From the NCBI GenBank assembly GCA_000972765.1, contig CP011265.1:2403501-2467500 (forward strand): a DNA stretch of 64,000 nucleotides, written 5' to 3'. Each line of letters begins with the position of its first letter. The stretch's first letter is position 1. The DNA is from Verrucomicrobia bacterium IMCC26134 (GTDB lineage: Bacteria; Verrucomicrobiota; Verrucomicrobiia; Opitutales; Opitutaceae). Below are positions 6,915 to 19,953 of the stretch, one piece after another. The translations under genes and the position numbers were made by a program. Under the pieces are notes generated by a model, which did not search any database, was not told the DNA's origin, and saw only the letters and a program-made list of their open reading frames with translations.

Positions 6915-8030
6915 TCACTCCCCCCCCACCGCCTTGGCAAAGTCCTCCAATCGGTTCGCAAACTCCGGCGGCGCGAAATCAGGCACCGATTGCGCCGTCG
7001 TGAAAAGCCTGTCCAGCGCCGGACCACACGCGGTTGCGCGGACCCGCTCCGGCCACGACGCCAGCAACCGGTCCAGCCCGAGAACAAGGCGCTCCGCGCG
7101 GTAGGCCTGCTCCAGCCGCTTAACATTCGAGTTGCGGAACTCACCCGCGCACTTTGCCAAGTCCCGCAGCACCTTCTCCCCATCGGCTGCTTGCCAGCTC
7201 TCATTGGCGTTTCGCGCATAGGCATCGGCCTCGCCGCTTTTCGCATCAAAGTCTACCCGCCCCGCACTCGTCGCACCTCCCGCCCGCCGCACCAGCCAGG
7301 ACAGAGCGCGTTCCCGCTCCGCCGCCCCCGCCGAATCGTCGCGCCCCCCACTACGGGCCGCCGCTGCTTCGCGCCACGCCACCGCCTGCCCGACAAACCA
7401 CGCCTTCGCCCCGTCCCAACCGTGCACTTCCCTCCAGTGCCGAGGCTCCGTCGCAATCATGCCGTCTAATTCAAAAATCAAACGCGGATGCCGCCCCGTT
7501 TCCACCAGCCTGGGTTGAATCACCTGATGGCACGCCACGCACGCATTGGCCCGCGCATAAGTCGACCGCAAATCCCGCATGCCAGCCGCCACTTTCTGTG
7601 CGTGGTCGAGATCGGGCCGCGTATGCGAACGCAGCCACGTATCCGAGCTTTCATGACAACTCGCGCACCCCACTCCATCCCCAATGCGCAAATCCTCACC
7701 ACGCATCGCCGCCGGCACGCCCGCCGCCGGCGCATGACAGGCCGTGCAGCTCGGGCTCGTCGTCACGTCTCCGATACCCAAAGCCTCGCCCATTCGCGCC
7801 GAACGTGGCGTCGCCAGGGTCGCAAAGGAACGCGCATGAATATCCGTCGCATTGAATTTACTCAAGGTGCCGTGCAGCGGACCGGACCCGCCGTGGCATC
7901 CGCTTGTCGCGCACGATTGATTACCTAATATCTTATCAACGAGCAGGTCGCTCCTTATTTCCTCCGCAGTCAGCGAAGATATCACCGCCGCGATAGCGCT
8001 CGCCACCCGTATTAATGATTTTAGAGTCAT
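6915..8030 (-). CDS. Secreted tetraheme cytochrome c
   Basis: A 371-aa protein with a signal peptide (MTLKSLIRVASAIAAVISSLTAEE). Four c-type heme motifs are seen: an expanded CX4CH (C40-ATSG-C45-H46) and three CXXCH at 95-99, 122-126 and 164-168. The rest (about 180-371) is helical, with no further heme motif. The expanded first site within SCATSGCHGG is typical of several cytochrome c-554-like periplasmic carriers. The gene is transcribed away from the plus-strand redox cluster across a 93-bp gap and ends 10 bp from the convergent heme-binding-like gene. It may be a periplasmic electron shuttle for that cluster; a catalytic role cannot be excluded. Confidence 0.75.
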   Translation of the reverse strand: MTLKSLIRVASAIAAVISSLTAEEIRSDLLVDKILGNQSCATSGCHGGSGPLHGTLSKFNATDIHARSFATLATPRSARMGEALGIGDVTTSPSCTACHAPAAGVPAAMRGEDLRIGDGVGCASCHESSDTWLRSHTRPDLDHAQKVAAGMRDLRSTYARANACVACHQVIQPRLVETGRHPRLIFELDGMIATEPRHWREVHGWDGAKAWFVGQAVAWREAAAARSGGRDDSAGAAERERALSWLVRRAGGATSAGRVDFDAKSGEADAYARNANESWQAADGEKVLRDLAKCAGEFRNSNVKRLEQAYRAERLVLGLDRLLASWPERVRATACGPALDRLFTTAQSVPDFAPPEFANRLEDFAKAVGGE

Positions 8031-8123: not shown

Positions 8124-9416
8124 ATGCCGGCCCTGAACGTTTTGCCCACCGGAACCACGCTGCTCATCGGTTATGTTGTGGTTGGCGCGGTGCTGATCCA
8201 GCTAGCCGTTTTCCTTTACGGCTCTCTACGCTCCGCCGCCCACGCCCGCGTGGCGCGGGCCCGTGATATTGAACGTCTCGACCTCGAAGTCAGTGCCGCT
8301 CGCTTGCGTCTGGTCTCCGTCGAGCAGGAGCGCTCCGGCTGGAACGGCATCCGCAAGTTTACCGTCGCAAAAAAAATCGCCGAGTGCGCCGACACGTTTT
8401 CGTTCCATCTCACGCCCCACGACAGGAGGCCGATTCCGGCCTTCAAGCCCGGCCAGTATCTTACGTTCCAGCTCACCCTGCCAGGACAGGCCAAGCCCAT
8501 AGTGCGCTGCTATTCCATCTCCGACTGTGCCCGCTACACCCATTACCGGGTCACCATCAAACGCTGCCCACCCCCGCCCAAAACCGACCACCCGCCGGGC
8601 AAGTGTTCGTCGTTTTTCTGCGACAACGTCAAAGAGGGCGACATCCTCGACGTGAAGGCCCCCGCCGGTCACTTTTTCCTCGATCTCGAAAAGGAAAAAT
8701 CCGCCGTGCTCATCTCCGGCGGCGTCGGCATCACCCCCATGATCGCCATGGCCCATGCTCTCATCGAGGCGCGCTCCAACCGCGAGGTGTGGTTCTTCTT
8801 CGGCTCCCGCAGCAGCGAGGACCACATGCTGCGCGCCGAGACCCTAGCCCTCACGCAAAAATACCCGAACCTCAAACTCCACATCTGCTACTCCCGCCCG
8901 GGGAAAGAGGATGTCATTGATCGCGACTTCCAGCACGAGGGCCGCGTCACCGTCGAGCTCATGAAGAGTCTCCTGCCGTCCCAAAACTATAACTTCTACC
9001 TCTGCGGTCCCGGCGCGTTCATGGAGACGATCACCGACGACCTCCGCACTTGGGGAGTGCCCGATGCCGCCGTTCACTTCGAGGCCTTCGGTCCCGCCTC
9101 GGTGAAAAAAGCCGCCAAGCCCGAGGCGAAGGCCGCCTTCACCGCCCTGCCCTTCGCTGGAGGCTCAATGATTAGTTTCGCCAAGTCCGGCCAGTCCACC
9201 CGCTGGTCTCCCGCTCACGCCACCTTGCTCGACGCCGCCGAGGCCTGCGGGGTTCGCATAGAGGCCGGGTGCCGCGCCGGCAACTGCGGCGCCTGCCTCG
9301 TCGCCATCAAATCCGGCGAGGTCGAATACCTCAACGACCACGGCGCCGAGGTCGAGGCCGGCTCCTGCCTCGCCTGCATCTGCAAACCCAAGGGCGCTCT
9401 CACCGTCGACGCCTAG
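8124..9416 (+). CDS. Membrane-anchored NAD(P)H:ferredoxin-type oxidoreductase (FAD + 2Fe-2S)
   Basis: The 430-aa protein starts with one membrane helix (about 10-32) and a short helical linker. An FNR-type module follows with the FAD-binding RCYSIS motif, the pyridine-nucleotide loop GGVGITPM and the FYLCGPG motif. A plant-type [2Fe-2S] domain ends it, with ligands in CRAGNCGAC (from about residue 382) and a distal Cys in SCLACICKP. This order matches Hcr and oxygenase reductases, which pass electrons from NAD(P)H through FAD to a 2Fe-2S centre. It opens a plus-strand run of six redox genes and is the likely cytosolic entry or exit point. The physiological partner is inferred to be the next gene's ferredoxin. 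Confidence 0.82.
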   Translation: MPALNVLPTGTTLLIGYVVVGAVLIQLAVFLYGSLRSAAHARVARARDIERLDLEVSAARLRLVSVEQERSGWNGIRKFTVAKKIAECADTFSFHLTPHDRRPIPAFKPGQYLTFQLTLPGQAKPIVRCYSISDCARYTHYRVTIKRCPPPPKTDHPPGKCSSFFCDNVKEGDILDVKAPAGHFFLDLEKEKSAVLISGGVGITPMIAMAHALIEARSNREVWFFFGSRSSEDHMLRAETLALTQKYPNLKLHICYSRPGKEDVIDRDFQHEGRVTVELMKSLLPSQNYNFYLCGPGAFMETITDDLRTWGVPDAAVHFEAFGPASVKKAAKPEAKAAFTALPFAGGSMISFAKSGQSTRWSPAHATLLDAAEACGVRIEAGCRAGNCGACLVAIKSGEVEYLNDHGAEVEAGSCLACICKPKGALTVDA

Positions 9417-9455: not shown

Positions 9456-11192
9456 ATGTCCGTCACCTCACCCAGCCTCGACCGTCCTCGCCGCTGGGAT
9501 GCACCGTTCGCCGCCGACTTCCCGCCCGAGGCCATCGAACGCCTTCTCTCCATCGCCCCCTTCGATGCGATGAACCCGGACAGTTTTCCCCGCTCCTCCT
9601 CCCTCCCCGACATCCTGCGCAACGACACCGCTCTTCGCACGTTCAAGGCCAACGAGCTCATCGTGCGCGAGGGCGACTACGGCACTTCCGCGTTCCTCAT
9701 TATTCAAGGCCGCGCCCGTGTCGTGCTTTCCCCCGGTCTCCCGCCCTCCGCCGTGGGCCGCAAGGAACGCTCCAAAAAGGGCCTTTTCCGCTCCCTCGCC
9801 CAACTCTGGTCAAATCCGCGCGAGGACGAGGCCATCACCCGCCGCCGCCACCGCGACCAGACCAGCCGTTCGGTTTTTCTCCAGGACGTCCCCCGCCTGC
9901 TAGGGGAGCACAAGACCGCCGCCATGCACGCCGGCGATTTCTTCGGTGAGATCGCCGCCCTCTCGCGCATGCCGCGCACCTCCACCATCTTCGCCGAGGA
10001 GGACAACACCCAGCTCCTCGAGATCCGCTGGCAAGGCCTGCGCGACTTGCTGAAATACGACCCCGCCCTGCGCGCCCACGTGGACAAAATCTACCGCCAG
10101 CGCGCCCTCGCGTCCTACCTTCAGGAAATTCCGTTTCTCCGCCACCTCACCGCCGAGGCCCGCGCCGTCGTCGAGGCCGCCACCCATTTCGAAACCTACG
10201 GCGACTATGACTGGTCCGGCGAATACAAGAAGCTCGTCCAGGCCGGCACCGCCGCCGTCGCCAAGGAAACCACCATCGCCGCCGAGGACGACTACCCGAA
10301 CGGCATCATCATGGTCCGCTCCGGTTTTGCCCGCCTTACCCAGCGCCACGGCGCCGGTCACCGCACCCTCAACTACCTCGGCGCCGGGCGCGTCTACGGC
10401 TTCGACGAGATCGCGCACAACTGGAAAAACCCCGACGCCCCCGTCTCCCTCCAGCACAGCCTTCGCGTCATCGGCCACACCCACGTTCTCACCATCCCGG
10501 CCGCCATCATAGAGCAACATGTGCTCCCCACCCTTCCGGCCGGCCAACTCCCGCCGCCAATCGCGCCGTCTGATGTAGCCCCGACCGCCGGTCGGGGTTC
10601 CGTTTCCGGTTCCTCCGCAGCACGCTCCGCACCCACAGTGAAGAACGTCGCCCCGGTTGACTCCGCCTTGATGGAGTTCCTCACCCAGAACCGTCTCTTC
10701 AATGGCACCGAGTCCATGGTCATTGACCTCGACCGCTGCACGCGTTGCGACGACTGCGTGCGCGCCTGCGCGTCCACCCATGATGGCAACCCGCGTTTCC
10801 TTCGCCACGGTCCCATTCATGACAACCTCATGGTCGCGCAGGCTTGCATGCACTGCGCCGACCCCATCTGCATGATCGGCTGCCCAACCGGCGCCATCCA
10901 CCGCGACGCCTTCGGCGGCGAGGTCGTCATCAACTCCGACACCTGCATCGGCTGCACCGTCTGCGCCAACAACTGCCCCTACGGCTCCATCCGCATGGTC
11001 GAGACCCGCGACGACGACGGCCAGCCCCTCGTCGCCAAGGATCAAAAGCCCCTCCTCAAAGCCACCAAGTGCGACCTCTGCCTCGACCAGCTCGGCGGCC
11101 CCGCCTGCGTCCGCGCCTGCCCCCACGACGCCCTCGACCGCCTCGACCTCAACACCCTCGATCCGCTCACCGCCTGGCTGAACCGCCGCTAA
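9456..11192 (+). CDS. Two cyclic-nucleotide-binding-like domains fused to a four-cluster 4Fe-4S ferredoxin
   Basis: A 578-aa soluble protein. A first CRP-type effector domain (about 50-210) contains FKANELIVREGDYGTSAFLI, a 50-residue insertion, then GDFFGEIAALSRMPRTSTI. A second domain lies at about 215-350. A DmsB/NrfC-like ferredoxin module (about 420-560) has 16 cysteines in four groups: CTRCDDCVRAC, CMHCADPICMIGC, CIGCTVCANNC and CDLCLDQLGGPACVRAC, enough for four [4Fe-4S] clusters. No DNA-binding helix-turn-helix follows the effector domains, so it is probably a ligand-gated electron carrier and not a regulator. It lies 39 bp after the reductase and 28 bp before the b-type membrane protein. 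Confidence 0.82.
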   Translation: MSVTSPSLDRPRRWDAPFAADFPPEAIERLLSIAPFDAMNPDSFPRSSSLPDILRNDTALRTFKANELIVREGDYGTSAFLIIQGRARVVLSPGLPPSAVGRKERSKKGLFRSLAQLWSNPREDEAITRRRHRDQTSRSVFLQDVPRLLGEHKTAAMHAGDFFGEIAALSRMPRTSTIFAEEDNTQLLEIRWQGLRDLLKYDPALRAHVDKIYRQRALASYLQEIPFLRHLTAEARAVVEAATHFETYGDYDWSGEYKKLVQAGTAAVAKETTIAAEDDYPNGIIMVRSGFARLTQRHGAGHRTLNYLGAGRVYGFDEIAHNWKNPDAPVSLQHSLRVIGHTHVLTIPAAIIEQHVLPTLPAGQLPPPIAPSDVAPTAGRGSVSGSSAARSAPTVKNVAPVDSALMEFLTQNRLFNGTESMVIDLDRCTRCDDCVRACASTHDGNPRFLRHGPIHDNLMVAQACMHCADPICMIGCPTGAIHRDAFGGEVVINSDTCIGCTVCANNCPYGSIRMVETRDDDGQPLVAKDQKPLLKATKCDLCLDQLGGPACVRACPHDALDRLDLNTLDPLTAWLNRR

Positions 11193-11220: not shown

Positions 11221-12048
11221 ATGATCGCCTCGCTAAAACTCCGTCGCACCGTCCTCTCGCTGCTCACCCTCGCCGCGTCTGCCGTGCTCGCCTTCTACTA
11301 CCCGCGTTTGGAGACCGCCCTGCCCCGTCTCGTTTACCTCACCGGCTGGCTTCTCCTGGTCCTCTGCCTGTTCCTGACCGCCTACAACGTCCGCAAAAAA
11401 CTCCCGTTCCTCCCGCTGCTTTCATCCCGGCTCTGGCTTCAATTCCACGCCTACGCCGGTCTCTTCGCCGGTCTCGTATTTGTTTTCCACCTACGCTTCG
11501 CCCTCCCTTTCGGACTCTTTAACCTCACCCTCGCCGCGCTGTTCCTCGCCGTCACGTTCAGCGGCATCTTCGGCTGGTGGCTGTCCCGCGCCATCCCGCG
11601 CCGCCTGACCACCGCCGGCGGCGAGGTGCCGTTCGAGCGCATTCCCGCCATCCGCCGGGATCTGCGGCTCCGCGCCGAAACAAGCGCCCTCGCCGCCATC
11701 CCCGAGGCCAAGGCCGCCACCCTCGCGGATTTCTACGTTCGCACCCTCGCCCCCGTTTTCGCCGCCGGCCCCGCTTTTCTGCCCCATATCCTCGGCTCGC
11801 GCGCCGCGCTCAACGACCGCCTCGCCACCCTCGCCGAGGTCAGCCGCTACCTCAGCCCGCCGGAGCAGGCCCGCGCCGATTCGCTCGCCGAGCTGGTCCG
11901 CGCCCGCCATGTCCTGGATTTCCACTACGCCAACCAGCTTCTGCTCAAAACCTGGCTCTTCAGCCACGTCCCGCTCACCTACGGCCTGCTGCTGTTCACC
12001 GCCCTCCACGTTGTCCTCGTCCATGCCTTTAGCGGAGGAGCCAGATGA
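11221..12048 (+). CDS. Membrane protein, probable diheme cytochrome b
   Basis: A 275-aa integral membrane protein with about five helices: residues 13-30, 37-55, 78-97, 100-122 and a C-terminal one near 248-270. Histidines in FHAYAGLFAGLVFVFHLRF and in the last helix (SHVPLTYGLLLFTALHVVLVHAF) are spaced for axial ligation of two b hemes across the membrane. A 120-residue hydrophilic segment separates helices four and five. It overlaps the next decaheme gene by 4 bp (ATGA), so the two are translationally coupled and probably form one complex. No close named family is recognised. Confidence 0.65.
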   Translation: MIASLKLRRTVLSLLTLAASAVLAFYYPRLETALPRLVYLTGWLLLVLCLFLTAYNVRKKLPFLPLLSSRLWLQFHAYAGLFAGLVFVFHLRFALPFGLFNLTLAALFLAVTFSGIFGWWLSRAIPRRLTTAGGEVPFERIPAIRRDLRLRAETSALAAIPEAKAATLADFYVRTLAPVFAAGPAFLPHILGSRAALNDRLATLAEVSRYLSPPEQARADSLAELVRARHVLDFHYANQLLLKTWLFSHVPLTYGLLLFTALHVVLVHAFSGGAR

Positions 12049-13757
12049 GCACCGAAGGCCGCCAGCCCGCCCCCGAGTTTGATGACACCCGCTACGAGCG
12101 GCCCCAGAAAAACTGGGTCTGCGGTCACGCTTGCGAGGGTTGCCCGTGCCGCCTCGGCCCATCCACTTCCGGAGCCTGCCGCGCCGGCCCCGAGTGCAAA
12201 CCGCTTCTCGTCGCCGCCGCGGGCGAGTCCAAGGGGCTCTGGAAATGCACCCGCCCCGCCGACTGGGGCGGCCCCTGCCCCACCGGTCCGAACCCCGACG
12301 GGACCTGCTGCCAAGTCACACCTCCTTGCGTGCCGGTGCGCAGTCTGCGTTCCCGCCGCGGCCTGCTGGTGCGGCTCACCGTCGCCGCCTGCCTCGGCCT
12401 GCTCCTGGTTGTGCTCTACGGCCCGTGGCGCGAGGCCGCCATTAACCCCGGCCCGCTCACCCGAGTCCACTCCGGGCCGGCCTTCGCCGCCGCTCACTCC
12501 GCCGCCGGGGTCAACGACACCCAGGGCTGCGTCCACTGCCACGCCGTCGCCCACCACCCGCCCGGCGAATGGCTCTCCACTGCCGCAGCCAGCCTCGTCC
12601 CCGGCGCTCCGCTCGCCCCAGCCCAACTGTTTTCCCGCGAGGCCCGCGACTTCGATCCGATGGACACCGCCTGCCAGTCCTGCCATCGCCCCCACTCTTT
12701 CCACCAAGCCAGCGTCGCCAACGACACCTCTTGCTCGGCATGCCACCTCGAACACCAGGGCCGCGGCCAAAACCTCCTCACGGTCAACCCCGCCCACTGC
12801 ACCGCGTGCCATGGCGACAACTCCCATATGACCGACGCCGCCCTACTTGCGCGCCGCCTCGACCCCGCCCTGTTCACCAAAAAAATCGCCGCCGGTCGCG
12901 TCGCCTTCGCCGTCGCCCGCCCGCCCGAGGGCCTCACCGCCCGGATCACTTCTTTCGCCGCCGACCACCCTGAGTTACGCCTCCACGCCCCCGGCACCGC
13001 CGATCCCAATCCGCTCGCCTTCAACCACGCCCTCCACCTTACCGGCGAAACCATTCCGCTGCTCGATGGCAAACGCCTCGACTGCCGCTCCTGCCACGTT
13101 CCCGACCAGAGCGGCGCCCTCATGCAGCCCGTCCGTTTCGCCCTTCACTGCCAGTCCTGCCACGGCCTGCCCATTGATCCGTCCACTCCGTCAGTCGCCG
13201 TCCCCCACGGCAGCGCCGAGGCCGCCCGCGCCTTTCTCCGCGCCTTGCCCGCCGCCTACTCGGATGACGCCGTGCGCCGCCTCGGTCTCTCCGGCGAACC
13301 CCTCCGCGCCCATGTCGCGGAGAAACTCGACGCGCTTCATTTCCTCCACCCGTCCGGCGAGGTCCTCGAGCGCAAGGTCTTCTTCGGCGACCCGTCCGCC
13401 CCCGCCGGCCGCGATTCCTGCAACCTTTGCCATGTCGTCGAGGCCACCCCGGCCGGAGCCACCCCGCGCATCGTCCCCGCCCAGGTTCCCGATATCTGGA
13501 TGCCTCGCGCCCGCTTCGACCACGCCCGCCACACCCAGGTTGCCTGCATAACTTGCCACGCCGCCACCACCAGCACGCTCACCACCGATGTGCTCATGCC
13601 CGCAAAGGCCACTTGCGCAACATGCCATAGCCCCGCCGGCGGCGTCACCGATTCCTGCACCGCTTGCCACGGTTACCATAATCCTCCTCCCACCGGCGTT
13701 ACAAAAACCGCCTCTCTTCCCGACCAGCTCAAACGCGCCTTGGCGTCCGCACCCTAG
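12045..13757 (+). CDS. Membrane-anchored decaheme cytochrome c with Cys-rich N-terminal domain
   Basis: A 570-aa protein. The N-terminal 100 residues hold 11 cysteines (positions 26, 30, 33, 35, 45, 51, 68, 78, 88, 89, 95) in the pattern CGHACEGCPC, GACRAGPEC, WKCTRP, GGPCPTGPNPDGTCC. One membrane helix (about 107-126) follows, then a periplasmic region with ten CXXCH motifs (CVHCH, CQSCH, CSACH, CTACH, CRSCH, CQSCH, CNLCH, CITCH, CATCH, CTACH). With a positive-inside orientation the Cys-rich part would be cytosolic, suited to binding Fe-S or zinc, and could meet the ferredoxin protein. The hemes would carry electrons across the periplasm. No MtrA-like sequence identity is evident by eye. Confidence 0.8.
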   Translation: MSTEGRQPAPEFDDTRYERPQKNWVCGHACEGCPCRLGPSTSGACRAGPECKPLLVAAAGESKGLWKCTRPADWGGPCPTGPNPDGTCCQVTPPCVPVRSLRSRRGLLVRLTVAACLGLLLVVLYGPWREAAINPGPLTRVHSGPAFAAAHSAAGVNDTQGCVHCHAVAHHPPGEWLSTAAASLVPGAPLAPAQLFSREARDFDPMDTACQSCHRPHSFHQASVANDTSCSACHLEHQGRGQNLLTVNPAHCTACHGDNSHMTDAALLARRLDPALFTKKIAAGRVAFAVARPPEGLTARITSFAADHPELRLHAPGTADPNPLAFNHALHLTGETIPLLDGKRLDCRSCHVPDQSGALMQPVRFALHCQSCHGLPIDPSTPSVAVPHGSAEAARAFLRALPAAYSDDAVRRLGLSGEPLRAHVAEKLDALHFLHPSGEVLERKVFFGDPSAPAGRDSCNLCHVVEATPAGATPRIVPAQVPDIWMPRARFDHARHTQVACITCHAATTSTLTTDVLMPAKATCATCHSPAGGVTDSCTACHGYHNPPPTGVTKTASLPDQLKRALASAP

Positions 13758-13761
13758 CTCC

Positions 13762-16011
13762 ATGCGCGCCTTCGGTCCCCTCGTCTCTTTTCTGGTCTGC
13801 GCAGCGCTTCCCCTCGGTGCCTCCGAGCCGCCGCCAGCTCCCGACCTGGCCCCCGGCGAACTCCCGTCCGACGCACCCCGCGCCCATCAACGTCTCGATT
13901 CCGCGCCGCCGCCGGCCTCCCCCGCCGACACGCCTTCCGACCCCGGCTCGCCTCTGCCGCCGCTTCCGCCGCCCGCCGCTCCCGTTCGTATCAACATAAC
14001 CACAACGTCGCCCGCCGCCTCGGCCTTCAATCCCGACCCCGGCGCTCCCGCCGCCCCCCTCTCCCCGGCACCCGGCTCCGCCCCCTACTTCCCGAGCGAT
14101 CCCGCCCCGACTCCCGCTCCTGCTCCCGCCGCCGTCCCCCTGCCCGCCGGCCCGCTCACGCGTCCCGCCGTCGAGACCGTCCCGTCCCCGCTCACCTCCG
14201 ATCCCGCCGCCGTCACTCCCCTCGGCTCCGATTTCCCCGAGCCACTCCCGCGCACCGGCGTCCGCTACACCGATCCGATCTCCCCGCACCACGGCCACGG
14301 CTGGTCCGCCCCAGAGTCCTACCCTCTCGCCGCCAAGGGCCAGGGTTACCCCGCCAACTCCACCCCCGTCCCCGATCGCTGGCGTGACACGTCTTTCGCT
14401 CCGTGGCGCCGCTACACCTCCGGCGACACCAACGAATCCCCGTTCGCCCACCCCGCGCCCGAGACTTGGCACTGGTATCGTCAAAGCCTGCTCAAGGGCG
14501 ACCTCCCTATCCACGGCCAGGACTGGTTCCTCGCTCTCACCGCTTCTTCCGAATCGCTCTACGAGGACCGCTCCCTCCCGCTCCCCAGCGGCGTCAGCGC
14601 GTCGTCGCCCGGTCAATTCGATTTCCTCGGCTCCTACGGCACGACCGTCTTCGTGCAAAACCTCGCCCTCGACGCCGTCCTTTTCCGAGGCGAGACCGTT
14701 TACCGTCCGCCGCACCAAACCTTCAAACTCCGCCTCGTCGGCAACTACAACCGCGTCACCGTGGACGCCCCGGGCCTGCTCAACCCCGACCCGTCCGCCC
14801 CTTCCGGCGGCAACGACGCCCCCACCCGCCGCAACGACGCTTTCCTCGCCGTTCAGGAGGCGTTTTACGAATACCACCTCGCCAACCTCACCCCCACTTT
14901 CGACTTCATCGCTGTCAAGGCAGGTCTCCAGTCCTTCAACTCCGATTTCCGCGGCTTCATTTTTAACGAAACCCAGCTCGGCCTCCGTCTGCTCGGCAAC
15001 GCCGACAACAACCTCTACCAATACAATCTCGCCGTCTTCGATCTGCGCGAGAAGGACACCAACTCCGAGCTCAACACCCTCGACGCCCGCGGCCAATACG
15101 TCGTCGTCGCGAACATTTATCGCCAGGATTTTCTCGTAAAGGGCTACACCGCCCAGCTCTCCCTCCACGGCAACTTCGACCAGGCCGGCATCAACTACGA
15201 CACCAACGGCGGCATCGTCCGTCCCAATCCCCTCGGCACCGTCGCCGCCCACGAGGTGGATGTCGGCTACCTCGGCTGGGCTGGCGACGGCCACTTCGGC
15301 CGTTTCAACGTCAACCACGCCCTCTACTACGCCTTCGGACGGGATGAGTTCAATGGTCTCGCCGGCCGCGAGACCACCATCTCCGCCGGCCTCGCCGCCC
15401 TCGAGCTCAGCTACGATCAAAACTGGATTCGCTTCAAGGCCTCCGCCCTCTTCGCCACCGGTGATTCCGATCCCACTGATGGTCGCGCCACCGGCTTCGA
15501 CTCCATCGTGGAAAACACCAACTTCGTCGGCGGCCCGTTCAGCTACTACGTCCGCCAGGGTTTCAACCTCGCCGGCACCGCCGTCTCCACCAAGCAGCGT
15601 TTCTCCGTCCTGCCGAATCTCCGTTCCAGCAAAACCCAGGGCCAGGCCAACTTCGTCAACCCCGGCGTTTTCATCCTCGGCCTCGGCACCGACATCGAGC
15701 TCACCCCTCGCCTCCGCGCCTTCGCCAATGCCAGCCACATCAGCTTCGCCCAGACCGAGCCGCTCCAGACCGCACTCTTCACCAACACTGTAGCCCCCGA
15801 TCTCGGCTGGGATCTCTCCCTCGGCCTCCAATGGCGCCCGCTCCTTACCGATAACATCATCGTCTCCGCCGGCTACGCCGTCCTCCTCCCCGGCCAGGGC
15901 TTTAACGACATCTACCGCAACACCGTCCCCGCCGTTCCCGGTTTCTCCGCCTCTCCGTCTCCGCCCTCGCTCCTCCACAGCGCCCTCATCGCCGTGACAC
16001 TCACTTACTAA
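13762..16011 (+). CDS. Outer-membrane beta-barrel protein of the cytochrome cluster
   Basis: A 749-aa protein beginning MRAFGPLVSFLVCAALPLGAS, a signal peptide. Residues about 20-170 are a low-complexity Pro/Ala-rich linker. The remainder consists of alternating amphipathic strands rich in Tyr, Phe, Asn and Gly (LGSYGTTVFVQNLALDAVLF, RLVGNYNRVTV, GFDSIVENTNFVGGPFSYYV) and ends SALIAVTLTY, an aromatic C-terminus typical of outer-membrane barrels. It starts 4 bp after the decaheme gene and ends 16 bp before the next multiheme gene. By position and fold it is the likely porin sheath of a porin-cytochrome conduit. An in-frame extension upstream of 13762 overlaps the decaheme gene and was rejected as the start. 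Confidence 0.72.
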   Translation: MRAFGPLVSFLVCAALPLGASEPPPAPDLAPGELPSDAPRAHQRLDSAPPPASPADTPSDPGSPLPPLPPPAAPVRINITTTSPAASAFNPDPGAPAAPLSPAPGSAPYFPSDPAPTPAPAPAAVPLPAGPLTRPAVETVPSPLTSDPAAVTPLGSDFPEPLPRTGVRYTDPISPHHGHGWSAPESYPLAAKGQGYPANSTPVPDRWRDTSFAPWRRYTSGDTNESPFAHPAPETWHWYRQSLLKGDLPIHGQDWFLALTASSESLYEDRSLPLPSGVSASSPGQFDFLGSYGTTVFVQNLALDAVLFRGETVYRPPHQTFKLRLVGNYNRVTVDAPGLLNPDPSAPSGGNDAPTRRNDAFLAVQEAFYEYHLANLTPTFDFIAVKAGLQSFNSDFRGFIFNETQLGLRLLGNADNNLYQYNLAVFDLREKDTNSELNTLDARGQYVVVANIYRQDFLVKGYTAQLSLHGNFDQAGINYDTNGGIVRPNPLGTVAAHEVDVGYLGWAGDGHFGRFNVNHALYYAFGRDEFNGLAGRETTISAGLAALELSYDQNWIRFKASALFATGDSDPTDGRATGFDSIVENTNFVGGPFSYYVRQGFNLAGTAVSTKQRFSVLPNLRSSKTQGQANFVNPGVFILGLGTDIELTPRLRAFANASHISFAQTEPLQTALFTNTVAPDLGWDLSLGLQWRPLLTDNIIVSAGYAVLLPGQGFNDIYRNTVPAVPGFSASPSPPSLLHSALIAVTLTY

Positions 16012-16021
16012 TCCGCTCCGA

Positions 16022-16054
16022 CCTCCGTGCACTCCGTGTCCTCCGTGGTTAAAA
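16022..16054 (+). repeat. Dispersed CTCCGTG-type repeat, copy 1
   Basis: A short repeat built on CTCCGTG units followed by GGTTAAAA. A near-copy occurs at 42766-42797. It overlaps the start region of the 1308-aa multiheme gene, and its GTG triplets supply every available upstream start codon. Confidence 0.6.
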
Positions 16055-19000
16055 AATCCGCCCTCCGCCGTCTCCTCGTCCCCATCGCCGCCGCGTGGGG
16101 TCTGGCCGTCGCGTCCCTTCTCCTCTTCGCCGACTCCACCCCGCACGACGTCGTCGTCTTCGCTCCCGCCGCCTCCATCTCTGGCCCCGCCACATCGGTT
16201 CCGCCCGAAATCCTAAATCCTAAATCCAAAATCCCAAACTCGCCCGCCCCTTCCCTCGTTGACCAATCCCGTGCCGCCGCCGCCCGCAAATCCGCCGGCT
16301 GCATCGAGTGCCATGCCAACATCGAGGACATGCACGCTTCGCCCCACGTCGTGCTCGGTTGCACCGACTGCCACGGAGGCGACCCCACCCCCGGCCTCAC
16401 CCTGCGAAAGGCCCACGTAGCACCGCTCAACCCCGAGCTCTGGCCTTCCTCCGCCAACCCCAACGACTCCTCCGTCCTCCTCAATCACGAGTCCCCCGAG
16501 TTCATCCAATTCGTCAACCCAGGCGACCTCCGCATCTCCGAAAAAACCTGCGCCCCCTGCCACGCCGAGATCAACGCCCACGTCGGTCACTCCATCATGC
16601 GCCACGGTGCAATGCTCTGGGGCGCCGCCCTCTACAACAACGGCGGCACCCCGCACAAAAACCCCACTTACGGCCAGGCCTACGGCGCCGATGGCGTCCC
16701 GCTCCGCCTCGAATCCCCCATCCCCGTCACGCCCGAGATGACACTCCTCCACGGCATCCTGCCTTTCATCGAGCCGCTCCCGCGCTTCGCCCTCGGCCAG
16801 CCGTCCAACATCCTCCGCATCTTCGAGCGCGGCGGCGAAAAAATTACCGAGCTTGGCAACCCCAACGCCTTCGAGCCCCCCGGCCGCCCCGCCCGCCGTC
16901 TCTCCGAGCGCGGCCTCGGCACCAATAACCGCATCGATCCCGTTTACCTCAATCTCCAGAAAACCCGCCTCCACGATCCGATGCTCGATTTCATGGGCGC
17001 GAACAACCACGCGGGCGACTACCGCTCGTCCGGCTGCACCGCCTGCCACGTCCCCTACGCCAACGACCGCTCCCCCACCAATTCCGGCCCGTGGGCCAAA
17101 TACGGCCACCAAGGTCTCTCCTTCTCCGCCGATCCCATGATCTCCAAGAAGGAGAAGGGCCACCCGATCAAACACCAATTCACCCGCTCCATACCGTCCT
17201 CCCAATGCATGAACTGCCACATGCACCAGGGTAACCTTTTTGTAAATCCGTTTCTTGGATACACATGGTGGGACCAGGAGTCCGACGGCGAGTTCATGTA
17301 TCCGAAGGAGCAACACGACCCCACCCCCGCCGAGGAGGTCGCCCTCCACACCAGCACCCCCGAGGCCGCCGCCGCCCGCGGTCTCTGGCGCGATCCCGCC
17401 TTCCTCGAAAAGGTCGCCGAACTTAACCCCAAGCTTAAAGAGACCCAGTTCGCCGACTACCATGGCCACGGCTGGGTTTTCCGCGCTGTCTTTAAAAAGG
17501 ACAAAGAGGGCAACCTGCTCACCCTCGACGACAAGATCATCCCGTCCTCCGACTCCGATAAGTTCAAAAAGGCCGTCCACCTCAAGGACGTCCACCTCGC
17601 CCGCGGCATGCAGTGCGTGGACTGCCACTTCACCACCGATGTCCACGGCAACGGCCTGCTCTACGCCGAGCCCCGTGCCGTCACCGCCATCGAGTGCATT
17701 GATTGCCACGGCACCATCGAAAAACGCCCCACCCTGCTCACCTCCGGCAACGGCGGTCGCGTCGTCAACGGCCAGGTCCTCCCCAACAACCTCGCCGAGG
17801 GCACTACGCCATTCGGCCCGCGCTTCCGCTGGGAAGGCAAAAAACTCCTCCAGCAATCCATGATGGACAAAAATCTCGTCTGGGAAGTCCCGCAGACCAT
17901 GGACTCCATTGATCCCACCAGCGCCCACTACAACCCCAAGAGCGCCTACGCCAAAACCCTCCGCCGCGACGGCCAAACCTGGGGCCCCTCCGTTTCAACT
18001 TCATCTTCCCCCTTGAACTCGGCGCATCCCGCGCCGTCCGACCTCGCCCACGCCAACCAAAACATCTCCTGCCAAATCTGCCATACGTCCTGGGCCACCT
18101 CCTGCTTCGGCTGCCACCTCCCGCTCAAGGCCAACCAAAAGGTCCCCGGCAATAAATTCGAGGGCACCACCACGCGTTTCTACACGACCTACAACCCGCA
18201 AGTCGTCCGCGACGACGTCTTCATGCTCGGCCTCGACGCCACCTACAAAGACAAGCGCCTCGCCGTGCTCCGCTCTTCCTCCGCCGTCATCGTCGGTTCT
18301 CAAAACTCCAACCGCGAGTGGATCTACTCCCAGCAGCAGACCATCTCCGCCGAGGGCTACTCCGGCCAAGCTTTCAACCCCCACTTTCCCCACACCACCT
18401 CTTCCGTCGGCACCACCAAGGGCTGCACCGATTGCCACCTTTCCACCGCCAACGACAATCACGCCTGGATAACCCAGCTACTCGGTTTCGGCACCGGCAC
18501 GGTCAACTTGTTTGGCCGCCACGCCTACGTCGCCTCCGGCTCCGCCGGTCTCGACGCCGTCGTCTGGACCGAACGCGAAGAGCCCCAGGCCGCCAACGGC
18601 TCCCACCTCCAGCACCTCGCCTACCCGCGCAACTACGCCGAGCACGTCGCCCGCAACTCCGTGCTCACCGAGGCCCATCACCACCACGGTCGCGGCGAGA
18701 TTCTCGACCTTCTCCAGCGCGGCGAGTATCTCTACGCAGCCGCCGGCGACGCCGGTTTCATCGTCTTCGACATCGCCAACGTGGACAACAAGGCCTTCTC
18801 CGAGCGCATCACCACCGCCCCCGTCTCCCCCTTCGGCCAGCGCCTGTATGTGAAAACCCGTTACGCCACCAGCGTCGTCTCCCCCTCCACCCTCGCCCTT
18901 GATCCGCTGCGCATCCGCCTGCCCGAGAACCAGGAGCAGCCCATCGGCCTCAACTACGGCTTCATCTACATCACCGACCGCGACGAGGGCATCGTCATGG

Positions 19001-19953
19001 TCCTTGCCGCCACCCTCCTTGACGGCGATCCATCCAACAACTTCTTCGACGAGAAAAAAGACGTCGTCCGCTTCAACCCCGGCCACCTCCTCGACGGCGC
19101 CACCCACGCCTACATGGCCGGCACAAACCTCTACGTCGTCTGCGCCGCCGGACTCGCCGTGGTGGACGTCACCGACCCCTTCCACCCGAAGCTCACCACC
19201 GCGCCCGTGCCCGGCGTCCTGCGCGATCCGCGCAAGATCGCCTTCCAGTTCCAGCACGCCTTCGTCACCGATGCCGACGGCGTCAAAGTCTTCGAGCTTT
19301 CCGCGCCGCTCTCGCCGCACCTCATCGCGACCGTTCCCCTCGCCCACGCCGCCGGCCTCTACGCTGCCCGCACCTACCTTTACGTCGCCGACGGCCCCGA
19401 GGGCCTCGCGATCCTCGACATCAAAAACCCCGCCGCCCCGCGCCTCCACAGCCACTTCACCGCCGACGGCCAGCTCAACGATACCCGCGCCATCCAGATC
19501 GGTGCCGTCAACGCCTCCATGTTCGGCCTCGTAGCCGACGGCAAAAACGGCCTGCGCGTCGTCCAGCTCATCAGCCCCGAGAACCAGCCCAATTACATGG
19601 GTTTCTCTCCCGAACCCAAACCGAAGCTCATTGCCAACTATCCCACCGAAGGTCCCGCCCTCGCCGTCTCGCGCGGTCTCGACCGCGACCGCGTGGTGGA
19701 CGAAACCGGCGGACAGAACGTCGTCTTCGGCCGGCGCGGCAGTCGCCCATTCCACGAACCCGAGTGGATGAAATTCCTCCAACACGCCGACGGCACCCCT
19801 TACCGTGTAGAGGATGTAGTCACCCAGCCCGACGGCACCCTGCAAACCAGCACCGGCAAGGTCCTCGCCCCCGCCGTCTACGTTAACCCCGAGCCTGCCG
19901 AAATCTTCGAGCCCAAACCCCGCCCCCGCCTAGAACGCCGCCCCGTCCGCTGA
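16027..19953 (+). CDS. Decaheme cytochrome fused to LVIVD-type beta-propeller
   Basis: A 1308-aa protein with a GTG start (16027; GTG 16045 is an equally good choice). A signal or anchor segment (RRLLVPIAAAWGLAVASLLLF) is followed by ten CXXCH motifs between about 92 and 800: CIECH, CTDCH, CAPCH, CTACH, CMNCH, CVDCH, CIDCH, CQICH, CFGCH, CTDCH. From about 820 to 1190 come LVIVD-like blades such as YLYAAAGDAGFIVFDIANVD, LYVVCAAGLAVVDVTDPFHP and YLYVADGPEGLAILDIKNP. The C-terminus is Pro/Arg-rich. It follows the barrel gene by 16 bp and is the best candidate for the cell-surface terminal cytochrome. Residues near 60-72 (EILNPKSKIPN) are encoded by a low-complexity repeat. Confidence 0.82.
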   Translation: MHSVSSVVKKSALRRLLVPIAAAWGLAVASLLLFADSTPHDVVVFAPAASISGPATSVPPEILNPKSKIPNSPAPSLVDQSRAAAARKSAGCIECHANIEDMHASPHVVLGCTDCHGGDPTPGLTLRKAHVAPLNPELWPSSANPNDSSVLLNHESPEFIQFVNPGDLRISEKTCAPCHAEINAHVGHSIMRHGAMLWGAALYNNGGTPHKNPTYGQAYGADGVPLRLESPIPVTPEMTLLHGILPFIEPLPRFALGQPSNILRIFERGGEKITELGNPNAFEPPGRPARRLSERGLGTNNRIDPVYLNLQKTRLHDPMLDFMGANNHAGDYRSSGCTACHVPYANDRSPTNSGPWAKYGHQGLSFSADPMISKKEKGHPIKHQFTRSIPSSQCMNCHMHQGNLFVNPFLGYTWWDQESDGEFMYPKEQHDPTPAEEVALHTSTPEAAAARGLWRDPAFLEKVAELNPKLKETQFADYHGHGWVFRAVFKKDKEGNLLTLDDKIIPSSDSDKFKKAVHLKDVHLARGMQCVDCHFTTDVHGNGLLYAEPRAVTAIECIDCHGTIEKRPTLLTSGNGGRVVNGQVLPNNLAEGTTPFGPRFRWEGKKLLQQSMMDKNLVWEVPQTMDSIDPTSAHYNPKSAYAKTLRRDGQTWGPSVSTSSSPLNSAHPAPSDLAHANQNISCQICHTSWATSCFGCHLPLKANQKVPGNKFEGTTTRFYTTYNPQVVRDDVFMLGLDATYKDKRLAVLRSSSAVIVGSQNSNREWIYSQQQTISAEGYSGQAFNPHFPHTTSSVGTTKGCTDCHLSTANDNHAWITQLLGFGTGTVNLFGRHAYVASGSAGLDAVVWTEREEPQAANGSHLQHLAYPRNYAEHVARNSVLTEAHHHHGRGEILDLLQRGEYLYAAAGDAGFIVFDIANVDNKAFSERITTAPVSPFGQRLYVKTRYATSVVSPSTLALDPLRIRLPENQEQPIGLNYGFIYITDRDEGIVMVLAATLLDGDPSNNFFDEKKDVVRFNPGHLLDGATHAYMAGTNLYVVCAAGLAVVDVTDPFHPKLTTAPVPGVLRDPRKIAFQFQHAFVTDADGVKVFELSAPLSPHLIATVPLAHAAGLYAARTYLYVADGPEGLAILDIKNPAAPRLHSHFTADGQLNDTRAIQIGAVNASMFGLVADGKNGLRVVQLISPENQPNYMGFSPEPKPKLIANYPTEGPALAVSRGLDRDRVVDETGGQNVVFGRRGSRPFHEPEWMKFLQHADGTPYRVEDVVTQPDGTLQTSTGKVLAPAVYVNPEPAEIFEPKPRPRLERRPVR
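16208..16238 (+). repeat. AAATCCTAAATCC-type low-complexity repeat inside a coding sequence
   Basis: Tandem heptamers of the form AATCCTA/AATCCAA, lower in GC than the surrounding gene, lie in frame in the 1308-aa multiheme gene between signal segment and first heme. They code a linker. Similar sequence is usually intergenic in bacterial genomes. Confidence 0.55.

Follow-up and report, generated by a model that had tools for sequence, protein, structure and literature searches.

Inner-membrane multihaem cytochromes that act as quinol oxidases or quinone reductases hand electrons to a periplasmic and outer-membrane multihaem chain. Two such proteins are CymA, which is marked by a NapC/NirT domain, and CbcL, which is marked by a b-type domain within the multihaem chain. 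Here we analysed a 64,000 bp stretch of the Verrucomicrobia bacterium IMCC26134 genome (accession: CP011265.1, 2,403,501 bp–2,467,500 bp, forward strand; hereafter the window), which encodes a decaheme c-type cytochrome with a cysteine-rich N-terminal module (the Cys module) as part of a redox cassette. The cassette would likewise deliver electrons to periplasmic and outer-membrane multihaem proteins; unlike the quinol-linked cytochromes, however, it has genes of its own for an NAD(P)H reductase, an iron-sulfur (Fe-S) protein, a b-type subunit and the predicted cytosolic Cys module. The decaheme protein is also unlike both CymA and CbcL, as no NapC/NirT or cytochrome b model matched it at E 1 in a profile search, and the b-type cytochrome is a separate gene outside the decaheme chain. 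Where the available part of a survey of such systems names inner-membrane entry points, they start from quinol (PMC6295460).

Comparison with other described systems gave partial likenesses. The core of NADPH oxidases and ferric reductases is an FAD-NAD(P)H part that feeds two stacked b-haems held on two H-x13-H helices, as in the cassette, and at one homologous locus (L139) reductase and b-haem part share a chain. Unlike NADPH oxidase, the cassette is mostly split into subunits and has a 4x[4Fe-4S] relay and a decaheme acceptor. Plasmid pMSHV of Sphingobium herbicidovorans (accession: NZ_CP020539.1; L162) carries a homologous Fe-S protein with cyclic-nucleotide-binding (cNMP) domains and four [4Fe-4S] motifs, a b-cytochrome with both H-x13-H pairs and a decaheme protein that aligned with that of the window over the haem part (2e-20). 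It differs from the window in that one chain unites the cNMP-Fe-S protein with a pyridine-nucleotide oxidoreductase and in that the N-terminal cytosolic domain of the decaheme protein is FHA-type, in place of the Cys module. Eleven other records of Sphingobium plasmids also carry this decaheme protein, and the pMSHV megaplasmid has a large multihaem gene close by. A role in extracellular electron transfer has been proposed for verrucomicrobial gene clusters that encode a putative porin and multihaem cytochromes (He et al. 2017, PMC5615132); as far as the available part of that paper describes them, eight haem sites are assigned to the periplasmic cytochrome, against ten in the window's, and neither a cytosolic Cys domain nor an NAD(P)H-linked cassette is mentioned there, the comparison being one of descriptions only. 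Putative porin-cytochrome genes are likewise noted in Verrucomicrobia in the available part of a further paper (PMC6344600). A search of open-licence papers, by title or start of the abstract, returned none that describes the cassette or the module.

The Cys module of the decaheme cytochrome

The features of the decaheme gene are as follows.

12,045–13,757, + strand: decaheme c-type cytochrome of 570 amino acids with the N-terminal Cys module and a predicted N-in single transmembrane (TM) anchor; ten CXXCH motifs, Paired_CXXCH_1 match at 6.2e-07
12,114–12,203, + strand: Cys unit 1, residues 24–53, W-x-C26-x8-C35-x2-GP-x3-G-x-C45-x5-C51-x-P; Cys invariant in 69/69 sequences; pairs with unit 2
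12,240–12,335, + strand: Cys unit 2, residues 66–97, W-x-C68-x9-C78-x2-GP-x3-G-x-C88-x6-C95-x-P; Cys invariant in 69/69 sequences; pairs with unit 1
12,360–12,416, + strand: TM helix, residues 106–124, following RSLRSRRG; hydropathy 2.49, positive-inside in 86/87 sequences
12,528–13,670, + strand: ten predicted periplasmic c-haem motifs (CXXCH), residues 162–542

The ATG of this gene is preceded by GGAGGAG and overlaps the stop codon of the upstream gene (ATGA). An earlier note on this DNA, made from the sequence without database searches, had counted eleven cysteines in about 70 residues ahead of a membrane helix, followed by a decaheme part. Both observations were confirmed: the cysteines are at positions 26, 30, 33, 35, 45, 51, 68, 78, 88, 89 and 95, and a single hydrophobic segment (106–124) precedes the ten CXXCH motifs, so that the protein has the make-up of a multihaem c-type cytochrome (CXXCH behind a membrane anchor or signal). 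Ten haem motifs were present in 81 of 87 distinct two-unit relatives. The other six were L059, L138, L158 and L161, whose frames reach a contig end, L240, which has six motifs, and L024, which is interrupted (L numbers denote loci and G numbers genomes of the genome collection; phylum names rest on record titles).

Alignment of the window with 68 loci from a scan of the genome collection (69 sequences) revealed that eight of the cysteines (26, 35, 45, 51, 68, 78, 88 and 95) were invariant in 69/69, as were the non-Cys residues Y17, R19, P20, W24, G38, P39, G81 and P82. The remaining three were less well kept, position 30 in 44/69, position 33 in 51/69 and position 89 in 48/69. When the alignment was widened with loci of two further phyla (88 rows), seven of the eight core Cys columns were invariant and the eighth was at least 90% conserved, a value that may reflect an alignment shift in one divergent row. 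Comparison of residues 1–105 with L026, L027 and L043 gave dN/dS values of 0.05, 0.13 and 0.15, which represents purifying selection; together with the eight cysteines invariant in all 69 sequences, this argues that the Cys pattern is not due to chance.

The pattern given in the earlier note was slightly off, as the core consists of eight cysteines in two four-Cys units rather than CXXC-type pairs. Both units share the frame W-x-C-...-C-x2-GP-x3-G-x-C-...-C-x-P. An hhalign comparison of the two unit profiles scored 38.5 with all 34 columns of unit 1 aligned; the best of 100 column shuffles scored 16.7 with the cysteines fixed and 14.3 with the cysteines free. By these profiles, the Cys module consists of one four-Cys unit that has been duplicated in tandem. 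Sorting 106 loci by unit pattern gave 92 with two units, 10 with the one-unit pattern only and four odd loci: two units can be read in L139 and L160, L141 looks like a hybrid and L238 is cut. The one-unit count is nine, not ten, as L093 reads as two units with another spacing. These nine single-unit loci (L142–L150, from the phylum of L087, titled Phycisphaerales) carry the unit directly before the TM helix and formed one group (84/95) in a b-cytochrome tree. The tree used 29 of the 68 loci L026–L093, near-copies having been thinned, and left out L019, L024, L034, L073 and L239–L242 (duplicate, interrupted or distant) as well as L141. At L141 (7102–9150) the first three cysteines of unit 1 seem to be joined to the last two of unit 2 in a decaheme protein, and this hybrid looks like the remnant of a deletion between the two units. 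Because single-unit loci and this hybrid exist, the four-Cys unit appears to be the building block of the module.

The earlier note had recognised no known Fe-S or zinc fold in this domain, and this was upheld at the level of sequence families: none of 67 module members matched any Pfam or NCBIfam model at 0.01. A match of the window's first 100 residues to ScmA (TIGR04252; 0.0091, 16.2 bits against a cut-off of 35) was rejected, as it was shared by 0/67 relatives at 0.01. The best hit of a PDB profile search with the module was LEU3 at 0.099, which was set aside as chance level. In AlphaFold models the module was largely without regular secondary structure; the models scored pLDDT 83.2 and pTM 0.58 with the TM helix, and pLDDT 74.2 and pTM 0.49 without it; Foldseek with these two only-fair models gave best E values of 6.0 and 5.8, nothing significant. 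Missing fold matches are no proof that the fold is new.

Lysine and arginine were commoner on the N-terminal side of the TM helix in 86 of 87 distinct two-unit sequences, and a hydrophobic stretch before the helix was found in none of the 87; one of these, L024, is interrupted, and its frame stops short of the helix. The haems of c-type cytochromes are attached in the periplasm. Because of these positive-inside signals and the site of haem attachment, the Cys module is most likely on the cytosolic side of the inner membrane. The cytosolic placement proposed in the earlier note thus gains support from sequence, to which the FHA-type domain in the same slot of 14 homologues (below) also contributes. 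Taken together, the conservation and topology signals indicate that the module is a real, conserved and unnamed cytosolic domain that lacks a Pfam or NCBIfam model.

The cassette and its distribution

The neighbouring genes of the window are as follows.

6915–8030, - strand: cytochrome c554-type protein, divergently transcribed; PF13435 match at 1.5e-09
8124–9416, + strand: membrane-anchored FAD/NAD(P)H reductase of 430 amino acids with a C-terminal 2Fe-2S domain; NAD_binding_1 match at 4.9e-22, Fer2 at 1e-12, N-terminal hydrophobic segment at residues 13–31
9456–11,192, + strand: protein of 578 amino acids with cNMP domains and four [4Fe-4S] motifs, the 16 Cys of which lie at 10,737–11,120; Pfam cNMP_binding match at 2.4e-21, Fer4 families
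11,221–12,048, + strand: b-type cytochrome of 275 amino acids, probably with five TM helices; two invariant H-x13-H pairs (H76/H90 and H249/H263)
13,762–16,011, + strand: putative outer-membrane barrel of 749 amino acids from an ATG behind the decaheme gene, with a signal-peptide-like start; named from its place and the literature, no Pfam match
16,027–19,953, + strand: large multihaem/LVIVD protein, weakly ExtM-like; LVIVD match at 1e-14, ExtM at 1.8e-20 (72.8 bits against a cut-off of 800)

The 16 Cys of the cNMP-Fe-S protein were invariant in 67/67 sequences. Its first cNMP domain region keeps FGE..AL....R, a later one looking degenerate by eye, and G164, E165 and R174, which we take to be the phosphate-binding cassette, were kept in 65/67; nucleotide binding by the first domain may therefore be live. 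In the b-cytochrome H76, H90, H249 and H263 were invariant in 68/68, and both H-x13-H pairs were also present in 41/41 rows of a wider b-cytochrome set (A3), Sphingobium included. Two helices that each carry H-x13-H are presumably the signature of two b-haems spanning the membrane, as in NADPH oxidase. The Pfam model Ferric_reduct matched only 1/41 members (0.0014), so no reliable family match was found. Distant b-cytochrome homologues at L241 and L242 precede frames with 21 and 24 CXXCH motifs; the next frames at these loci have 8 and 27, the former being truncated at the contig end. Relatives of the c554-type protein were found at related loci.

Co-occurrence was counted over 102 module loci, L019, L024, L034, L239 and L240 having been dropped. 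The b-cytochrome lay alongside the module gene in 99/102 and the 16-Cys cNMP protein in 97/102, the latter being the count with the 16-Cys ferredoxin gene that the earlier note had suggested. The reductase was on the same strand within 7 kb in 78/102 and anywhere in the fetched stretch in 86/102. Five loci had no 16-Cys protein alongside, namely L054, L055, L157, L073 and L139: L054 begins 148 bases from a contig end, and the genomes of L055 and L157 carry the protein elsewhere.

In the window's phylum the module matched 12 of 288 genomes. The matches in G062 and G110 were dropped, as each contains a stop; frames with at least five haem motifs were absent around the former, and the Cys motif was not seen in frame in the latter. 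The 10 genomes left are the same 10 that have the b-cytochrome at E <= 1e-80, with 276 genomes drawn for that comparison against 288 in the module search. In the phylum of L089 (titled Gammaproteobacteria) the module was present in 12 of 398 genomes, all with the b-cytochrome. The b-cytochrome itself was found in 13 of the same 398 genomes at E <= 1e-86, and in the thirteenth, G644, only the end of the module was in frame. A second weak match in the window's own genome (0.333) was taken as chance, and a plasmid search with the module gave no match at 0.01. On this evidence, and by record titles, the cassette is spread over Verrucomicrobiota, Planctomycetota and Proteobacteria; genome copies from metagenome bins may be misassigned. 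Loci L050, L027, L028 and L043, titled Klebsiella pneumoniae or Akkermansia muciniphila, also carry the cassette; L050 and L043, both in the tree, group with Verrucomicrobia-titled rows or with the window, and these titles look wrong. In G121 (titled Kiritimatiellae) there are two cassette copies with interrupted frames (L024 and L239), and the six-haem module protein L073 stands alone elsewhere in the genome.

Downstream on the same strand, among loci L026–L048, a relative of the barrel-like protein was present in 20/23 and a relative of the LVIVD multihaem protein in 18/23, two of the misses (L032 and L046) being at contig ends. This arrangement indicates that export across the outer membrane may take place in that branch. 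LVIVD multihaem genes similar in size to that of the window were also seen near the FHA-type cassettes L224 and L229.

Variation of the slot before the membrane helix

The FHA-type slot is shared by the Sphingobium protein and thirteen loci from the phylum of L089, which have the cNMP protein and the b-cytochrome in 13/13. All 14 FHA-type N-termini matched PF00498 (FHA) and PF16697 (YscD cytoplasmic domain) at 0.1, the best at 1.9e-07 and 4.2e-10, respectively. Some matches were weak singly, L222 at full length giving none at 0.001. The best PDB matches of the FHA-type profile were Rv1747 (3.8e-08) and GarA (8.3e-08), which we take to be FHA proteins. The FHA rows formed one side of a branch at 100/100 in the b-cytochrome tree. 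At three further loci (L235, L236 and L237) the slot holds only a short basic tail in place of a domain. The module is also absent from L221 (G960), whose b-cytochrome nevertheless falls within the module carriers in the tree (a four-row group at 100/93). That genome has no cNMP-Fe-S protein at 1e-60 and no reductase relative at 1e-20, and a differently ordered 2Fe-2S/FAD/NAD reductase lies upstream of L221. This joint absence fits docking of the cNMP-Fe-S protein to the module.

What feeds the membrane haems can be seen from two fusions. The frame at L139 (8761–11,394; G371:C37) encodes an 878 amino acid chain of an N-terminal hydrophobic part, FHA (2.7e-16), FAD/NAD, 2Fe-2S and a b-cytochrome recognised by tblastn and by two H-x13-H pairs; it adjoins a module-bearing decaheme gene, the second in G371. 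At L233 (4844–8203; G625:C50), in an FHA-type cassette, the cNMP-4x[4Fe-4S] protein and a b-cytochrome with both H-x13-H pairs are in one 1120 amino acid frame. The FHA-type and empty slots imply that the slot before the TM helix need not hold a redox centre. Because the slot varies, and because reductase or Fe-S protein can be fused straight to the b-cytochrome, electrons need not pass through the module. The earlier note had proposed a docking or first-acceptor site: docking remains compatible and plausible, whereas a first acceptor is unlikely, given homologues with FHA or nothing in the slot and a b subunit that supplies the path.

We therefore weighed several roles for the module. We favour that of a cytosolic two-unit adaptor or plug on an NAD(P)H-to-periplasm conduit, probably metal-binding and not an obligatory electron carrier, with a probability of roughly 0.55. 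Tetrathiolate metal binding by each four-Cys unit would be the natural reading of the pattern, and the same four strictly kept cysteines per unit, with no His or Asp replacement in 69 sequences and a 4x[4Fe-4S] protein as partner, would also suit Fe-S clusters that relay electrons towards the membrane haems and so give one polypeptide redox centres in the cytosol as well as the periplasm. Such a relay is unlikely in view of the FHA-type and empty slots, the single-unit versions and the L139 and L233 fusions, and no Pfam Fe-S family matches the module. Somewhat less likely still is a thiol/disulfide or metal-occupancy sensor that gates the conduit beside cyclic-nucleotide gating. FHA domains are of a type known from regulation, and their presence in the slot of relatives speaks for a sensor, as do the conserved residues G164, E165 and R174 in the first cNMP domain of the partner; strict invariance of all eight cysteines, however, is more in keeping with a structural metal site than with a switch made of one or two cysteines.

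The lineages with no domain in the slot (L235–L237 and L221) would be expected if the module were a purely structural stub that contacts no partner and only aids insertion or stability of the membrane anchor, but the invariant non-Cys residues, the tight cassette linkage and the low dN/dS fit a specific interaction better and make a stub improbable. A periplasmic, disulfide-held N-terminus, the outcome that the earlier note had set against its own proposal, is the least probable of all: the module is small, rich in Cys, Gly and Pro and poor in secondary structure, like many disulfide-rich domains, yet the positive-inside signal in 86/87 sequences, the lack of a hydrophobic stretch before the TM helix in 87/87, haem attachment on the outer side and FHA in the same slot all speak for the cytosolic side.

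Several observations weigh against the adaptor role. L235 and L236 keep the cNMP protein yet lack the module; L139 keeps the module with no cNMP protein at the locus, its genome having one elsewhere; strict coupling of module and cNMP protein was rejected because of these loci. At L073 a six-haem frame bears the module but lacks an adjoining cassette; joint absence was seen once, in G960, whose branch is long (1.53); and the AlphaFold models of the module are only fair in quality. Co-occurrence establishes that the parts belong to one system, not that they touch. What the sequences show is the cassette, the unit duplication, the invariant Cys and His, the N-in signals, the fusions and the FHA-type or empty slot of homologues; from these we infer the direction in which electrons flow, as well as metal binding, docking, surface export and regulation by cyclic nucleotides.

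Proposed role and significance

In the adaptor role, the module would be the N-terminal plug of the inner-membrane decaheme protein, and most likely serves to dock, assemble or tune the redox subunits on the cytosolic side, beneath the membrane part. Each four-Cys unit is most likely folded round one metal ion in a zinc-knuckle-like manner, Fe-S being possible. Electrons would pass from NAD(P)H to the FAD/2Fe-2S reductase, the 4x[4Fe-4S] cNMP protein, two b-haems across the membrane and then ten periplasmic c-haems. In the window and its close relatives the last step would lead from the periplasmic c-haems to the outer-membrane barrel and the large multihaem protein, and in some hosts the direction could be the reverse. 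A broader and more tentative proposal, which we hold to be somewhat doubtful, is that the cassette is an undescribed quinone-bypassing, cyclic-nucleotide-gated wire that links NAD(P)H with periplasmic haems, present in at least three phyla, with an exchangeable cytosolic control plug that would be a new duplicated tetra-Cys metal fold in one branch and FHA in another.

The Cys module is a domain for which Pfam and NCBIfam have no model, and the FHA domain found in its place offers a ready comparison for the role of the cytosolic plug. The cassette is equipped to use NAD(P)H as its starting donor, and its Fe-S protein bears cyclic-nucleotide-binding domains; if the proposal is true, cells could discharge reductant outside under second-messenger control.

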